Shown here: positions 5,086-25,684 of the stretch, piece after piece
Layout of the letters: every line of letters starts with the position of its first letter
How positions within the stretch are numbered: the stretch's first letter is position 1
Virus record (IMG/VR): IMGVR_UViG_3300025083_000128
Location: 1-32,782 of that record
DNA from: a virus
Strand: one strand, 5' to 3'
DNA: 32,782 nucleotides
The notes under the pieces: model-generated
Database searches by the model: none
What the model saw: the letters and a program-made list of their open reading frames with translations, nothing else
Told to the model about the DNA's origin: nothing
Translations under genes and position numbers: made by a program

Positions 5086-5118
5086 TATAGTTTTACTTAT
5101 GACTTAAAGTTTGTCAAG

Positions 5119-13281: not shown

Positions 13282-13494
13282 CTATTCAGGGTACTGACGT
13301 ATTACCCGACGAATATCACCACGCCCAATACCGATGTCACTTAGTTCACGGTCTGTCATACCACGTAGCTGCATCTCAGCAATACGGATATTGGCTTGGC
13401 GTTGACGTGCTTCAATCATTGCATTGAATACTTTGACTAAAAACGCCTTAAAATTAGTGGCCCACATACGTGATTCAGAAATTACTAGTTCCAT
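13282..13494 (-). CDS. DUF1127 (YjiS-like) small protein
   Basis: 70 residues from the second of two close ATGs; AAGGAG lies seven bases before ATG 13492-13494 but only about two before the ATG at 13498-13500. The C-terminal half, LRGMTDRELSDIGIGRGDIRRVIRQ, matches the DUF1127 signature (L..M.DREL.DIGI.R.DI). The N-terminal half is a basic amphipathic helix (FKAFLVKVFNAMIEARQRQANIRIAEM). DUF1127 proteins are abundant in alpha- and gammaproteobacteria. One, CcaF1 of Rhodobacter sphaeroides, is reported as an RNA-binding protein acting in small-RNA maturation and RNA turnover. A copy inside a phage late operon suggests control of host or phage RNA, or simple acquisition from the host. The domain call is strong; the role is inferred. 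Confidence 0.75.
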   Translation of the reverse strand: MELVISESRMWATNFKAFLVKVFNAMIEARQRQANIRIAEMQLRGMTDRELSDIGIGRGDIRRVIRQYPE

Positions 13495-13517
13495 GTCCAT
13501 TCTCCTTTGTTAGTTAG

Positions 13518-15609: not shown

Positions 15610-15978
15610 TTACTTCATATCCATCTTACGTGGGTCTAACAGACTACTGTGATCTCTGTCGATAAACTCTAGTGTCTTCTCTAGTAGCGCTACTCGTTGC
15701 TGTAACTCTACGATACGCATAATAGACATAGACATACTGTTTATCTCTTCCCACAACTCATCCATGTCATCCCATACATACTCTAACTCTTTAGAGTTAT
15801 CTACTACGTCACGCTTTAGGTTAACGTTATCTTCGATAGCCATCTTAGAGCCTAACTGGGATACAGTCTCTTCTAGGCTAGCTATAGTAGCAGCTTGTTG
15901 TGATACCCACCACACACCACCTGCTAGTTGTACTGCCATAGCTGCTACTAATGCAATGGGAAGCTTCACGTTATCCAT
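15610..15978 (-). CDS. N-anchored membrane protein with coiled coil
   Basis: 122 residues. One N-terminal membrane segment (LPIALVAAMAVQLAGGVWWV, about residues 6-25) is followed by a long predicted coiled coil (ATIASLEETVSQLGSKM ... ELWEEINSMSMSIMRIVELQQRVALLEKTLEFI). This topology, a short cytoplasmic start and periplasmic coiled coil, is that of inner-membrane spanins and of some holin partners. No lipoprotein partner is found beside it. Candidate lysis protein, only by topology. It overlaps the upstream gene by eight bases. Confidence 0.5.
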   Translation of the reverse strand: MDNVKLPIALVAAMAVQLAGGVWWVSQQAATIASLEETVSQLGSKMAIEDNVNLKRDVVDNSKELEYVWDDMDELWEEINSMSMSIMRIVELQQRVALLEKTLEFIDRDHSSLLDPRKMDMK

Positions 15979-16228
15979 ACTGTCTCTCTTTGTCAGGGTC
16001 TAACACTTCATGCCTACCCAAGTGTCCCTCTAAGTACATAGCTCTCTCTACGTGATCTAACGTGTACCACTCACCAGTACGTACATAGATAGCTTCTCTT
16101 ACGTAGAACACATCCGACTTTGGTATGTGTACTTTCTGCATAGCACGTGAGTCATTGTTAGCTAATGCGTTGTAAAAGTCTGTTAAGACATCTTCACTTG
16201 CATATAGTTGTACAGGTTTATGTTTCAT
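15971..16228 (-). CDS. Unknown soluble protein, first gene of the late arm
   Basis: 85 residues from ATG 16226-16228; a TTG six bases upstream is possible but that triplet lies within a TTGACA. The sequence (QLYASEDVLTDFYNALANNDSRAMQKVHIPKSDVFYVREAIYVRTGEWYTLDHVERAMYLEGHLGR) looks like a compact mixed fold. No Shine-Dalgarno sequence is visible, unusual among its neighbours. Translation may depend on the structured leader that ends about 30 bases upstream (16259-16357). No family recognised. Confidence 0.5.
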   Translation of the reverse strand: MKHKPVQLYASEDVLTDFYNALANNDSRAMQKVHIPKSDVFYVREAIYVRTGEWYTLDHVERAMYLEGHLGRHEVLDPDKERQYG

Positions 16229-16258
16229 TGTCAAGTAAAAACTTTAATCAGCAATAAG

Positions 16259-16357
16259 TACGTGCTGCAAATAACTAGTAGTTACATTGTAATTGTTACA
16301 GAGAGGGAGGAGAGGAGACACACAGTTACAATATAGTGTCGTTACTCACAGCACGTA
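16259..16357 (-). ncRNA. Structured late-leader RNA with anti-Shine-Dalgarno apical loop
   Basis: In minus-strand RNA, 16357-16341 (UACGUGCUGUGAGUAAC) pairs with 16275-16259 over 17 consecutive positions with three G.U pairs. On the plus strand those three become C.A mismatches, so the fold belongs to the transcribed strand. Inside, 16335-16326 pairs with 16292-16283 over 10 positions (one G.U). The 33-base apical loop (16325-16293) carries a pyrimidine tract reading UCUCCUCUCCUCCCUCUC, rich in anti-SD sequence. It lies between the promoter at 16400-16429 and the first late gene. Alternative: the plus-strand purine tract may be a relic ribosome site. Confidence 0.5.
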
Positions 16358-16399
16358 GTCACAATAGTATTATTGCTTTTATGATTTGTGACTGTGTAT

Positions 16400-16429
16400 A
16401 GTATAACATTAATGTAATAACTCTGTCAA
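16400..16429 (-). promoter_or_regulatory. Sigma70-type promoter for the late (structural) arm
   Basis: On the minus strand TTGACA (16429-16424, perfect -35) is followed after 18 bases by TATACT (16405-16400, five of six matches to the -10 box). Transcription would begin near 16393 and run into the hairpin leader and the virion genes. It is the best promoter match in the control region. A second TTGACA pair at 16613-16618 and 16624-16629 has only a poor -10 (CATAAC). One 11-bp iteron (16412-16422) sits in the spacer, so a protein binding it would cover this promoter. Confidence 0.6.
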
Positions 16430-16571
16430 GTACAAATATTCATATAGTTACATGTATAGTTTAATGACCTATGTCCACTTACATATTTACTACACTATGT
16501 AATAACTTTTATGTAATAACTATCTTTTATATTTACTTCTTATGTGTAACTACTCTTAAGAGTTATTACAT
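16412..16571. repeat. Four copies of the 11-mer ATGTAATAACT
   Basis: Exact copies at 16412-16422, 16497-16507 and 16511-16521 (direct) and 16561-16571 (inverted). The last abuts a 12-bp perfect palindrome ACTCTTAAGAGT at 16552-16563, around which further inverted similarity extends. Exact 11-mer repetition in 160 bp of AT-rich non-coding DNA suggests binding sites for an initiator or regulator. The first copy lies inside the late promoter spacer. Function is inferred. Confidence 0.5.
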
Positions 16572-16642
16572 TAAAGTTTAACTTAGCCCCCTACCCCCAT
16601 AGTTATGCTTATTGTCAAGCGTATGTCAAGTAAGAAATATGT

Positions 16643-16685
16643 GTGTTACACTAAAAAGTGATCATACTGTAACAAACTGTAACAC
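16643..16685. repeat. TGTAACA repeats, inverted and 10-bp tandem
   Basis: GTGTTACA (16643-16650) is inverted relative to TGTAACAC (16678-16685). Between them ACTGTAACA occurs at 16666-16674 and again at 16676-16684, a 10-bp period that places both on the same helix face. A GTGATCA (16658-16664) lies in the middle and matches the core of the three palindromes at 17092-17168. Likely protein-binding sites; the protein is unknown. Confidence 0.4.
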
Positions 16686-16743
16686 AATGTTACTAAAACT
16701 ATAGGGTACCTGCTCCAGTGGTCCATACCCCTAGCTTGTTAAT

Positions 16744-16773
16744 TTGTTAATACTGGTAATGTTACACTATAAC
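16744..16773 (+). promoter_or_regulatory. Possible plus-strand promoter
   Basis: TTGTTA (16744-16749, four of six to the -35 box) and TATAAC (16768-16773, five of six to the -10 box) are separated by 18 bases. Transcripts would start near 16780 and cross the G-quadruplex-bearing segment and the palindromes before the first early ORF at 17259. The match is moderate and such pairs arise by chance in AT-rich DNA. Confidence 0.3.
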
Positions 16774-16843
16774 ATAAGACTTCATGGTATACCTGGTTGC
16801 AAAAACCCCGTGTGTGTACTTGTGTATATACGTATAACGTAGA

Positions 16844-16870
16844 CCCCCACCCTGGCCCATGCCTCCCCCC
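16844..16870 (-). other. G-quadruplex motif on the minus strand
   Basis: The plus strand shows C-tracts at 16844-16848, 16850-16852, 16856-16858 and 16865-16870. The minus strand therefore has four runs of at least three G with loops of 6, 3 and 1 bases, a complete intramolecular quadruplex motif. It is striking because the surroundings are AT-rich. A further pair of five-C tracts lies at 16587-16591 and 16594-16598. Possible roles are transcription blocking, origin marking or packaging signal; none is shown. Confidence 0.45.
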
Positions 16871-16873
16871 ATC

Positions 16874-16954
16874 AAGATATAGCTAAGTGTTTGTTTTTAC
16901 TAGTGTTTCTACTTAAGATAGAGCTGTCAGAAATAATACACTCAAGAAATAGCT
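16874..16954. repeat. Three direct AAGATATAGCT-like repeats
   Basis: AAGATATAGCT (16874-16884), AAGATAGAGCT (16915-16925) and AAGAAATAGCT (16944-16954) differ from one another at one or two positions and have the same orientation, starting 41 and 29 bases apart. They lie between the G-quadruplex motif and the palindromes. They may be binding sites of a phage regulator; no palindromic symmetry is seen. Confidence 0.35.
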
Positions 16955-17091
16955 AATAATTCAGCATATAAAGCTTTGTTTTTGTTAGGTTTTACTACTC
17001 ATGTAGCTTGAGTGATGCACTATTTGTGTGGTATTACCCTACCCCATTGGAAGGTGGTGCGATTATACCCCATACGATGCATGTATCAACA

Positions 17092-17168
17092 TTGTGATCA
17101 CAAACACCAGAGCCATCACACCAATGTGATCACATACTATAGCATCAACACTTTTTGTGATCACAAAA
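17092..17168. promoter_or_regulatory. Three evenly spaced GTGATCAC palindromes (operator array)
   Basis: Perfect palindromes TTGTGATCACAA (17092-17103), ATGTGATCACAT (17124-17135) and a 16-bp TTTTGTGATCACAAAA (17153-17168) have centres 32 and 31 bp apart, about three helical turns, so they lie on one face of DNA. CTATAGCAT follows the second and third. They end 60 bp upstream of the TATAAT at 17228-17233, where an activator or a looping repressor would bind. TGTGA-TCACA resembles the half-sites of CRP/FNR-family proteins but without the spacer those proteins need. The binding protein is not known. Confidence 0.55.
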
Positions 17169-17204
17169 GCTATAGCATTCCCAGTACAACCAAAGCGATA
17201 CCAT

Positions 17205-17233
17205 AGCACAACCACAAGTAGAGCTTATATAAT
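17205..17233 (+). promoter_or_regulatory. Early promoter with perfect -10 and weak -35
   Basis: TATAAT at 17228-17233 is a perfect -10 box. At the -35 position (17205-17210) only AGCACA is found, a poor match, so the promoter would need help from a bound activator; the three palindromes lie just upstream. The start of transcription would be near 17240, about 20 bases before the first tiny ORF. An inverted repeat ATAGG-TGC-CCTAT at 17248-17260 covers that ORF's ribosome site and part of its start codon, and could be an operator or RNA hairpin. Confidence 0.45.
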
Positions 17234-17258
17234 AATACTGTGAAAGTATAGGTGCCCT

Positions 17259-17333
17259 ATGTCCAAACAAATAATAATTGCAAAAAGAATCGTTATAAAA
17301 CAAAGACTTATAAAAAAGTTTGATAAAAAGTAA
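17259..17333 (+). CDS. Possible 24-residue cationic micropeptide, first early ORF
   Basis: An ATG at 17259-17261 opens 24 codons ending in TAA at 17331-17333. AGGTG lies six bases upstream and the presumed start of transcription about 20 bases upstream. The peptide has ten Lys/Arg, alternating with Ile, Val and Leu (MSKQIIIAKRIVIKQR...), and should form a strongly basic amphipathic helix or strand. Its ribosome site is in a small inverted repeat (17248-17260). It could be a leader peptide, a takeover or membrane-active peptide, or chance. Too short for homology arguments. Confidence 0.35.
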   Translation: MSKQIIIAKRIVIKQRLIKKFDKK

Positions 17334-17398
17334 AAAAAGTACTTGTCAAATAAAATCCCGTATGTCATCTATTAATCATCGAAACGAACACAGCAACA

Positions 17399-17421
17399 CT
17401 AGCAGAAAGGTAAATGCTATG
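17399..17421 (+). repeat. 23-bp leader block repeated before two early genes
   Basis: The 23 bases ending in the start codon (CTAGCAGAAAGG then TAAATGCTATG) occur identically at 17399-17421 and 17730-17752. They supply the ribosome site AAAGG for both genes. A related block (GGAAAGGTAAACACGATG) precedes the third gene at 18063. Together with the repeated hairpin trailers this shows that the first early genes are built as duplicated leader-gene-hairpin units. Confidence 0.7.
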
Positions 17422-17667
17422 CAGATTGAGACTTTTATTTTGCCAACTCATTGGGCTTGTTACTTAGTGAATGCAGATGCATCGTATCTAAGCGACGATG
17501 ATCAAGTTGAGATTGATACATATGTAGATGACTTGTTAGCTAACGGATATAAATGTTTTCATGTTGCCAATGTATCACAAGATAGTTACTTTTCACGTTA
17601 TCACGATGCAGATAATGGCAATTATATCTTGACTGAGGTAGCAGAATATGAAGTCATAACTGAGTAG
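17419..17667 (+). CDS. Small early protein, DUF6926-like
   Basis: 82 residues from the ATG that ends the 23-bp leader repeat; the frame is open further upstream (from 17320) but without a ribosome site. MQIETFILPTHWACYLVNADASYLSDDDQVEIDTYVDDL and the later HVANVSQDSYFSRYHDADNGNYILTEVAEYEV fit a phage and plasmid small-protein family I remember as DUF6926 (LPS.WA..L.NGD...L.DED). The function is not known. Acidic, soluble. The stop codon lies at the beginning of a repeated hairpin element. Confidence 0.6.
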   Translation: MQIETFILPTHWACYLVNADASYLSDDDQVEIDTYVDDLLANGYKCFHVANVSQDSYFSRYHDADNGNYILTEVAEYEVITE

Positions 17668-17678
17668 TTACTTTATCG

Positions 17679-17712
17679 GGTGCATCTAATACCCTCCCTT
17701 ATTGGGTGCACC
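17679..17712 (+). ncRNA. Hairpin H1 with anti-Shine-Dalgarno loop, in repeat unit 17666-17725
   Basis: The arms GGTGCATCTAATA (17679-17691) and TATTGGGTGCACC (17700-17712) pair at all 13 positions with two G.U pairs, leaving the 8-base loop CCCUCCCU. On the other strand the G.U pairs would be A.C mismatches. The surrounding AGTTACTTTATCGGGT ... ATAAACTAAC is shared with a second unit at 17960-18021. It begins at the stop codon of the preceding gene. No T-tract follows, so it is not an ordinary terminator. Candidate processed small RNA or intercistronic control element. Confidence 0.6.
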
Positions 17713-17749
17713 TTAATAAACTAACTTAGCTAGCAGAAAGGTAAATGCT

Positions 17750-17953
17750 ATGTTTTATATGGAAGTAGACTTTTATGGTGATCATTTACGTATCGAATGG
17801 AATGGATCCGCTACCTTTAACATACAAGTCCCTATTGGTGGGCAATGGGTAGATGTAGAATGTTTCACTTGTTACGATATAGACAATGAAAACGATGCAT
17901 TTAATTATGCGCTAGACTGGATGAATGAAAACATGATGGAGGATGTAGAATAA
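17750..17953 (+). CDS. Small acidic early protein of unknown function
   Basis: 67 residues (MFYMEVDFYGDHLRIEWNGSATFNI...), with two or three beta-strands followed by an acidic C-terminal helix (ENDAFNYALDWMNENMMEDVE). It uses the same 23-bp leader as the gene before it and is followed by the same hairpin element, so the two genes are parallel units although the proteins are not alike. No family recognised. Early position suggests host takeover. Confidence 0.55.
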   Translation: MFYMEVDFYGDHLRIEWNGSATFNIQVPIGGQWVDVECFTCYDIDNENDAFNYALDWMNENMMEDVE

Positions 17954-17972
17954 ACATATAGTTACTTTATCG

Positions 17973-18008
17973 GGTACACTTGCAATCGCTCCTTACTGTG
18001 GGTGTACC
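17973..18008 (+). ncRNA. Hairpin H2 with anti-Shine-Dalgarno loop, in repeat unit 17960-18021
   Basis: GGTACACTTGCA (17973-17984) pairs with TGTGGGTGTACC (17997-18008) over 12 positions with three G.U pairs. The 12-base loop AATCGCTCCTTA-C contains CUCCUU, close to the 3' end of 16S rRNA (ACCUCCUU). Compared with H1 the fourth pair changes from G-C to A-T with both partners altered, a compensatory change that supports the RNA fold. Flanks AGTTACTTTATCGGGT and ATAAACTAAC are shared with the H1 unit. Confidence 0.6.
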
Positions 18009-18023
18009 TACATAAACTAACTA

Positions 18024-18062: not shown

Positions 18063-18725
18063 ATGACTTGGACAGTTAAAGCTGCGACAGAAGTGAGTCG
18101 CATATCAAGTGGCAATAGCAAAATGCCAGGCTCTACATTCTCTACTGATGCATTCGCTTGCAAGGTAGGCTCTAAGCTAGCTAAGGTAGAGGGTAGCGTA
18201 TGCAGTGGATGCTATGCACGAAAGCTGCAAAAGCTACGCCCTAGTGTAGATAAGGGGTGGCGCAATAACTACTTAAAAGCTACCGACATGATAGCTAACA
18301 ATCCCGAAAAGTGGGCAGATGCAGTATCATTCCAGATAAAACGTATAGCCAATAAGTCTGGTGAAATGTTTCACAGGTGGTTTGACAGTGGTGACTTGGA
18401 CAGCGTGGACATGCTACGTGCTATCGTTATCGCTTGTGAAAAGACACCAGAGATACGCCATTGGCTACCAACACGAGAGGCTAAGATAGTCAAGCTATAC
18501 CGCAAGCAATACGGCAATGAGCCTAGCAACTTAGTCATACGTGTAAGCTCAACTATGATTGGTGATGCACCTATGCGTGGACATACGTTGACTAGTACCG
18601 TGCATCGTAAAGGTGAACACCAACACGGACATGAATGCCCAGCGCCTAAGCAAGGCAATAACTGTGGTGACTGTCGTGCATGTTGGTCAACCAAAGTACT
18701 TAACATCAGTTACACTAAACACTAA
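18063..18725 (+). CDS. GP88-like phage protein (cysteine-rich)
   Basis: 220 residues from the ATG after GGAAAGG; the upstream extension from 18033 has no ribosome site and would run through the GCTAGC hairpin. KMPGSTFSTDAFACKVGSKL followed by GSVCSGCYA (C47, C50) is the signature of the family named after mycobacteriophage gene product 88. The W.PTRE segment and a C-terminal Cys cluster (HECPAPKQGNNCGDCRACW) suggest metal or iron-sulfur binding. The biochemical function of the family is unknown to me. It is the first sizeable early gene, so an early takeover role is plausible. Confidence 0.68.
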   Translation: MTWTVKAATEVSRISSGNSKMPGSTFSTDAFACKVGSKLAKVEGSVCSGCYARKLQKLRPSVDKGWRNNYLKATDMIANNPEKWADAVSFQIKRIANKSGEMFHRWFDSGDLDSVDMLRAIVIACEKTPEIRHWLPTREAKIVKLYRKQYGNEPSNLVIRVSSTMIGDAPMRGHTLTSTVHRKGEHQHGHECPAPKQGNNCGDCRACWSTKVLNISYTKH

Positions 18726-25660: not shown

Positions 25661-25684
25661 CCACAGTCTTAGAGGAGACACGAC

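Follow-up and report, generated by a model that had tools for sequence, protein, structure and literature searches.

Small RNAs that present an anti-Shine-Dalgarno (anti-SD) sequence in hairpin loops have been described in Alphaproteobacteria. In the α-r14 RNA NfeR1, anti-SD loops on stems of unrelated sequence silence mRNAs at the translation start (PMC10746234), and the CcsR or cuckoo RNAs of the Rhodobacteraceae, also of the anti-SD type, are often linked with a DUF1127 gene (PMC10253847). A DUF1127 protein of Rhodobacter, CcaF1, binds and matures RNAs of this type. For the c4 antisense RNA of phages P1 and P7, pairing of its loops to the ribosome-binding region of a phage mRNA is the proposed mode of action (PMC12197685). 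Here we describe H3, a long hairpin in IMG/VR record IMGVR_UViG_3300025083_000128, a 32,782-nucleotide piece of the genome of an HMO-2011-type phage whose close relatives include Roseobacter phages CRP-2 and CRP-603; this whole stretch is referred to as the window. H3 lies on the minus strand, in the intergenic region separating the minus-strand structural operon (terminase, portal, coat and tail genes) from the plus-strand replication operon, as these are annotated in relatives. It is a widespread, previously undescribed structured RNA of HMO-2011-type phages, and an incomplete search of the literature turned up no account of one like it in this group. The original prediction had grouped H3 with two hairpins, H1 and H2, among the small genes opening the plus-strand operon, as anti-SD RNAs that bind ribosome sites. 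The three are not one thing, and H3 is set apart from the other two. The hairpin and its loop are located as follows.

16259-16357, minus strand: H3 (also SL2), a long hairpin with a pyrimidine (anti-SD) loop, identified by folding, arm pairing, compensatory changes and covariance models.
16297-16321, minus strand: the exposed loop of H3, GUGUCUCCUCUCCUCCCUCUCUGUA, containing three CUCC motifs.

Each hairpin was folded and compared with 200 shuffled sequences. All three fold as predicted, with z-scores of -5.3 (H1), -4.8 (H2) and -4.8 (H3), and no shuffle was as good in any case. The energy of H3 was -34.5 kcal/mol, against -25.0 kcal/mol for the opposite strand. The distribution of H3 was surveyed in the leaders of the gene that follows it, which encodes 85 amino acids, taken from named phages and 80 IMG/VR loci. 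The leaders were grouped by shared 8-mers into 51 clusters, and 36 representative clusters were used for statistics on loops, promoters and strands; since clusters share descent, counts of clusters are not counts of independent events. A pyrimidine-loop hairpin bearing CUCC was found upstream of the 85-residue gene in 41 of the 51 clusters, including a displaced copy in contig L109, and its usual distance to the ATG was 25–36 nucleotides. The ten clusters without it were the isolates CRP-1, CRP-345, CRP-9, CRP-13 and HMO-2011, together with L078, L085, L087, L120 and L121. Three leaders (L098, L099 and L116) had two CU-loop hairpins in tandem at this place instead of one.

Stem sequences were unrelated between clusters, and every 5′ arm paired with its own 3′ arm. 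Cognate arms gave a mean of -26.4 kcal/mol, compared with -10.0 kcal/mol when arms were exchanged among clusters, and in most clusters own-arm pairing exceeded that of all 60 shuffles. This test, unlike the location of the loop, is independent of the CUCC motif. RNAalifold, given one alignment that mixed unlike stems (A2), returned six pairs only, the arms having been misaligned by MAFFT; arm swapping and alignments within subgroups took its place. Compensatory changes affected 6 of 17 pairs in one tested subgroup and 4 of 10 in another, with slid controls giving approximately zero, and counts were similar in further stem groups. Covariance models built from one stem group recovered other groups on the correct strand, with E-values down to 5e-7, and yielded no match in CRP-9, CRP-13, CRP-1, CRP-345 or HMO-2011. 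Whole-genome scans showed H3 to be the single standout hairpin of its kind in each genome. As it recurs in dozens of phages on unrelated stem sequences, H3 is far beyond chance. Stem covariation and retention of CUCC among relatives had been set in advance as the test of the prediction; the covariation proved strong, and the loop was present in almost all relatives. A covariance-model search of the window and 20 related loci against all Rfam 15 families, c4 RNA among them if listed, gave no match at the gathering score, and only noise when relaxed to an E-value of 5. Pattern searches with the exact H3 loop or the H1 and H2 arms returned mostly chance matches and a few relatives.

The original prediction also held that pairing is specific to RNA of one strand, and for H3 this is borne out across the family. 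Among stems located by strand-neutral scoring, in which G.U and A.C counted alike, the predicted sense strand contained 105 G.U and 28 A.C pairs (p = 1e-11). Selection therefore acts on RNA of the strand that had been named. The sense-strand fold was stronger than that of the opposite strand in 30 of the 36 clusters. Were H3 a DNA element that extrudes as a cruciform, for instance an origin or a site of packaging or recombination, no such strand preference would be expected; we consider this explanation very improbable, although the AT-rich intergenic region between divergent operons, with its many repeats, counts in its favour.

The loop of H3 resembles the 3′ tail of 16S rRNA, and the anti-SD motif claimed for it, UCUCCUCUCCUCCC, is indeed contained in its 25 nucleotides. 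At least one CUCC was present in 36 of 36 clusters and at least two in 32. The density of CUCC was 0.094 per nucleotide in the loop and 0.0008 in the remaining leader, a difference inflated by the partial use of CUCC in locating the loop. Inside loops, CUCC and UCUC occurred about three times as often as expected from base composition, and GUCU and GUGU were also strongly enriched; CCCU, UCCC and UCUU were not above composition. The UCUCC/CUCC motifs are kept in the loop while the stems differ almost completely among clusters.

Presentation of an anti-SD loop on highly divergent stems is a feature that H3 shares with α-r14. NfeR1, however, is chromosomal and has three hairpins with an identical CCUCCUCCC in each, whereas H3 is phage-borne and usually consists of one such hairpin accompanied by a first hairpin, SL1. 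The ultraconserved CCUCCUCCC of the α-r14 and cuckoo RNAs was exact in the loop of only 3 of 36 clusters (CUCCUCCC in 8 of 36), and their multi-hairpin design is approached only in the tandem leaders L098/L099 and L116. As in the CcsR/CcaF1 system, the phage also encodes a DUF1127 protein (PF06568), at 13285-13500 on the minus strand of the window, within the structural operon. This protein was also found in CRP-2 and CRP-603, and CRP-1 and CRP-9 gave partial matches. CcsRs arise by processing of the ccaF1 transcript, from its 3′ part, whereas H3, behind a predicted promoter of its own, lies about 2.8 kb upstream of the DUF1127 gene. That gene is on the same strand but is neither adjacent nor always present, so H3 lacks the co-transcription typical of CcsR/CcaF1 (CIN1). 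The phage RNA closest in mechanism is c4, which acts on one defined gene (ant) in temperate phages and differs from H3 in that H3 has no Rfam match. The 6S RNA of phage lambda is a short terminated leader RNA of the late promoter. H3 would likewise be a short structured RNA directly before the structural operon, but a second promoter motif follows it, and the loop is conserved rather than termination.

The sequence elements surrounding H3 are listed in the order of predicted transcription.

16400-16429, minus strand: P1, a sigma70-like promoter motif, TTGACA-N18-TATACT, with 11 of 12 consensus matches and a predicted start near 16393.
16357-16393, minus strand: SL1, the first hairpin, between P1 and H3, with stem AGUCACAA/UUGUGACU and an A-rich loop.
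16235-16258, minus strand: spacer past H3 without an SD-like motif; a T-run at its start in many relatives is weak in the window.
16206-16234, minus strand: P2, TTGACA-N16-TACAACT, overlapping the start of the 85-residue gene.
15974-16228, minus strand: the 85-residue gene, of unknown function, the first past H3, opening the structural operon.

From this arrangement, each copy of H3 is best seen as laid out like a small RNA gene, with a sigma70-like promoter, SL1, H3 and a U-rich tail. None of 100 shuffles matched the promoter consensus as well as P1 of the window. A P1-like site (of the type TTGACA-N17/18-TATACT) was found in nearly all 36 clusters, with a mean of 10.1 matches compared with 8.6 in shuffles, and the RNAs predicted from these sites would be about 70–200 nucleotides long, mostly 120–170. 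SL1 was found in 26 of 28 leaders tested (mean z -2.9; -4.4 in the window). In L109 a whole gene of about 230 codons separates H3 from P2 and the 85-residue gene, indicating that the H3 unit stands alone; it is best read as a small RNA gene rather than merely the leader of the 85-residue gene. Between the hairpin and the ATG an SD-like 4-mer was absent in 34 of 36 clusters and present in two; sequestration of an SD in cis is therefore unlikely.

The P2 element, TTGACA-N16-TA(C/A)AACT, was kept in 57 of 57 distinct sequences, third codon positions included. It is probably the structural operon's own promoter, with the TTGACA near the ATG as its one half, since CRP-9 and CRP-13 have it ahead of the ATG and further copies of the motif occur at other places in these genomes. 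Promoter-like TTGACA-N16/17-TA(N)AACT sequences were present at conserved sites in all HMO-2011-type genomes examined, in the window also at 5117 (minus strand) and 28939 (plus strand). A search for the 85-residue gene in bacterial genomes found it in six metagenome bins only, and no prophage was identified.

Across the family, the fraction of T was 0.75–0.78 at positions +4 and +5 past the stem, against a background of 0.36, as would be expected of an intrinsic terminator; in the window the tract is weak, and the loop of about 25 nucleotides would be unusually large for one. The enrichment directly past the stem would fit an H3 whose main role is attenuation or termination in the structural operon, its CU loop incidental, as would L087, which retains a hairpin and T-run without the CU loop. 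An incidental loop, however, would not retain CUCC in 41 of 51 clusters amid complete turnover of the stem, and termination at the hairpin need not touch transcripts from P2, which lies downstream. We regard this explanation as improbable.

Somewhat better placed, but still rather unlikely, is a leader element that binds a protein through its pyrimidine loop and controls the structural operon in cis; the protein could be ribosomal S1, some RNA-binding protein of the host or the phage, or Rho acting at a C-rich site. The fixed site of H3 before the first structural gene, the lack of an SD at that gene and the richness of the loop in YC dinucleotides are in keeping with it. So is the DUF1127 protein encoded in the window and in relatives, as this family has an RNA-binding member in CcaF1. 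Binding of this kind does not account for the selective excess of CUCC and UCUCC over CCCU, UCCC and UCUU, and in L109 H3 precedes a different gene. DUF1127 does not track H3 either, with no match in CRP-207, which has H3, and partial matches in CRP-1 and CRP-9, which do not. It was rejected as the partner protein of H3 because of this inconsistent presence.

We consider it more probable than not that H3 serves as the main domain of a small RNA acting in trans through its anti-SD loop, similar in design to CcsR and α-r14 but a member of neither. Host sigma70 RNA polymerase would initiate at P1, judging from the promoter motifs, and produce an RNA of about 150 nucleotides containing SL1 and SL2. 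In many relatives the T-rich stretch past SL2 may act as an intrinsic terminator that ends the RNA; this stretch is weak in the window. The stem would be needed only to hold the loop open, in keeping with a sequence that drifts while pairing stays. The loop, repeating the anti-SD of 16S rRNA, would base-pair with other mRNAs at their purine-rich ribosome-binding sites and block their translation in trans. The RNA would probably target host mRNAs as well as the early replication genes of the phage, whose SD sites are the strongest; many structural genes, having weak SDs, would be spared, and P2, as a separate promoter motif past the unit, would drive the structural operon. The strongest predicted phage target is the following.

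25671-25681, plus strand: ribosome-binding site AGAGGAGACAC of the DNA helicase gene, an exact 11-nucleotide complement of the H3 loop.

The helicase site matched the loop at 11 of 11 nucleotides in the window, CRP-2 and CRP-603 and at 9 nucleotides in G001; in phages lacking H3 the site reads AGGAGAA. The helicase was the top-ranked predicted target of 25 conserved phage genes compared across six genomes (Fisher p = 0.012, uncorrected for the 25 genes). Early replication genes, the helicase foremost, are the best predicted phage targets, which is suggestive, a lead and no demonstration; host mRNAs are equally plausible. DNA polymerase was rejected as a common target, being strong only in CRP-207 and G002. 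The loop CUCAUGUCUC of the CRP-207/G002/G003 subgroup complements the DNA polymerase start region GAGACAUGAG, exactly over 10 nucleotides in CRP-207 and 9 in G002, and the match is lost in G003.

Several observations weigh against a trans-acting anti-SD RNA. Five clusters inside the clade (L078, L085, L087, L120 and L121) lack the CU loop, L087 in spite of its hairpin and T-run, and the U-tract is weak in the window's nearest relatives as well as in the window. The helicase p-value precedes correction for 25 genes; a permutation test gave p = 0.02 for exact matches, among related sequences, and p = 0.55 for total energy. In most H3 genomes SDs are stronger at early genes than at structural ones (0.47 versus 0.24, with gene starts taken from a simple gene caller of our own) but also in phages without H3 (0.55 versus 0.33). 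The asymmetry is thus not an adaptation to H3, and was rejected as proof of its function. A translational switch, in which the RNA mimics the 16S 3′ end, stops translation of host mRNAs and of the early replication genes of the phage itself, the helicase foremost, and leaves many weak-SD structural genes translated, with the conserved UGU beside CUCC adding specificity for GGAGACA, would be a further step, and one we put forward as speculative and on present evidence doubtful. Of the proposal that the phage makes anti-SD RNAs binding ribosome sites, the conserved structure and loop of H3 stand; binding would follow from complementarity, with a weakly significant phage target prediction, and H1 and H2 drop out, as described below.

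17665-17726, plus strand: H1 unit, an intergenic hairpin (17679-17712) past an 82-residue gene, outside the H3 family.
17959-18022, plus strand: H2 unit, a paralogous intergenic hairpin (17973-18008) past a 67-residue gene.

H1 (-19.9 kcal/mol, 14 base pairs, loop CCCUCCCU) and H2 (-22.8 kcal/mol, 13 base pairs, loop AAUCGCUCCUUA) both fold less strongly on the opposite strand (-12.9 and -20.8 kcal/mol), the difference being small for H2. Alignment of their arms confirmed the duplication and its compensatory change, GCA/TGC to ACA/TGT. As H1 and H2 are paralogues of one unit, the likeness of their loops is not independent evidence. In homologues L128-L131 the same site past the 82-residue gene is occupied by an unrelated hairpin whose loop lacks CUCC, an outcome named beforehand as refuting the prediction, which speaks against H1 and H2 as anti-SD RNAs. 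L038 (8196-8298) and L127 have a single hairpin, its 5′ part from H1 and its 3′ end from H2, and have lost the 67-residue gene, which points to recombination between the two units. It is likely that H1 and H2 are instead intergenic cassettes for mRNA processing or stability and recombination joints among small early genes. The hybrid hairpin and the replacement in L128-L131 both favour this, and the CUCC in both loops and the compensatory change common to both copies count against it. In T4-type phages, promoter-early stem-loop cassettes recur as hairpins in the gaps between small early genes, where they mediate the shuffling of genes. H1 and H2 resemble them in this layout and shuffling, but belong to another phage group, and no promoter has been demonstrated in their units.

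L128-L131, from another phage group, also contain repeated intergenic hairpin units of the TTAGCCGTTGCGGCGGCTAA type; these precede AGAAAGG ribosome sites and seem to be a separate cassette built to the same layout. The 82-residue early gene (17419-17667, plus strand) matches DUF6926 (PF21977) with 28.4 bits, the cut-off being 27. Veravirus CRP-4 contains homologues, 84% identical, of the GP88-family gene at 18063-18725, which points to gene exchange among unrelated RCA phages. Three copies of the palindrome TGTGATCACA, spaced by 31–32 bp, lie at 17092-17183 on the plus strand, in the intergenic region between the divergent operons. CRP-603 has them as well, and their appearance suggests an operator at which a phage regulator or one of the CRP/FNR type would bind.

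Phages of the HMO-2011 type count among the dominant ones in the sea, and no regulatory RNA is mentioned in the papers that describe them. The H3 carriers CRP-2, CRP-603 and CRP-207 have cultured hosts, making expression and targets directly testable, and a possible link between DUF1127 and H3 deserves testing in view of the role of CcaF1 in Rhodobacter. The anti-SD-loop design of alphaproteobacterial small RNAs is common to phages too, and a conserved phage RNA with the ribosome's anti-SD sequence would mean that translation can be steered without a protein.

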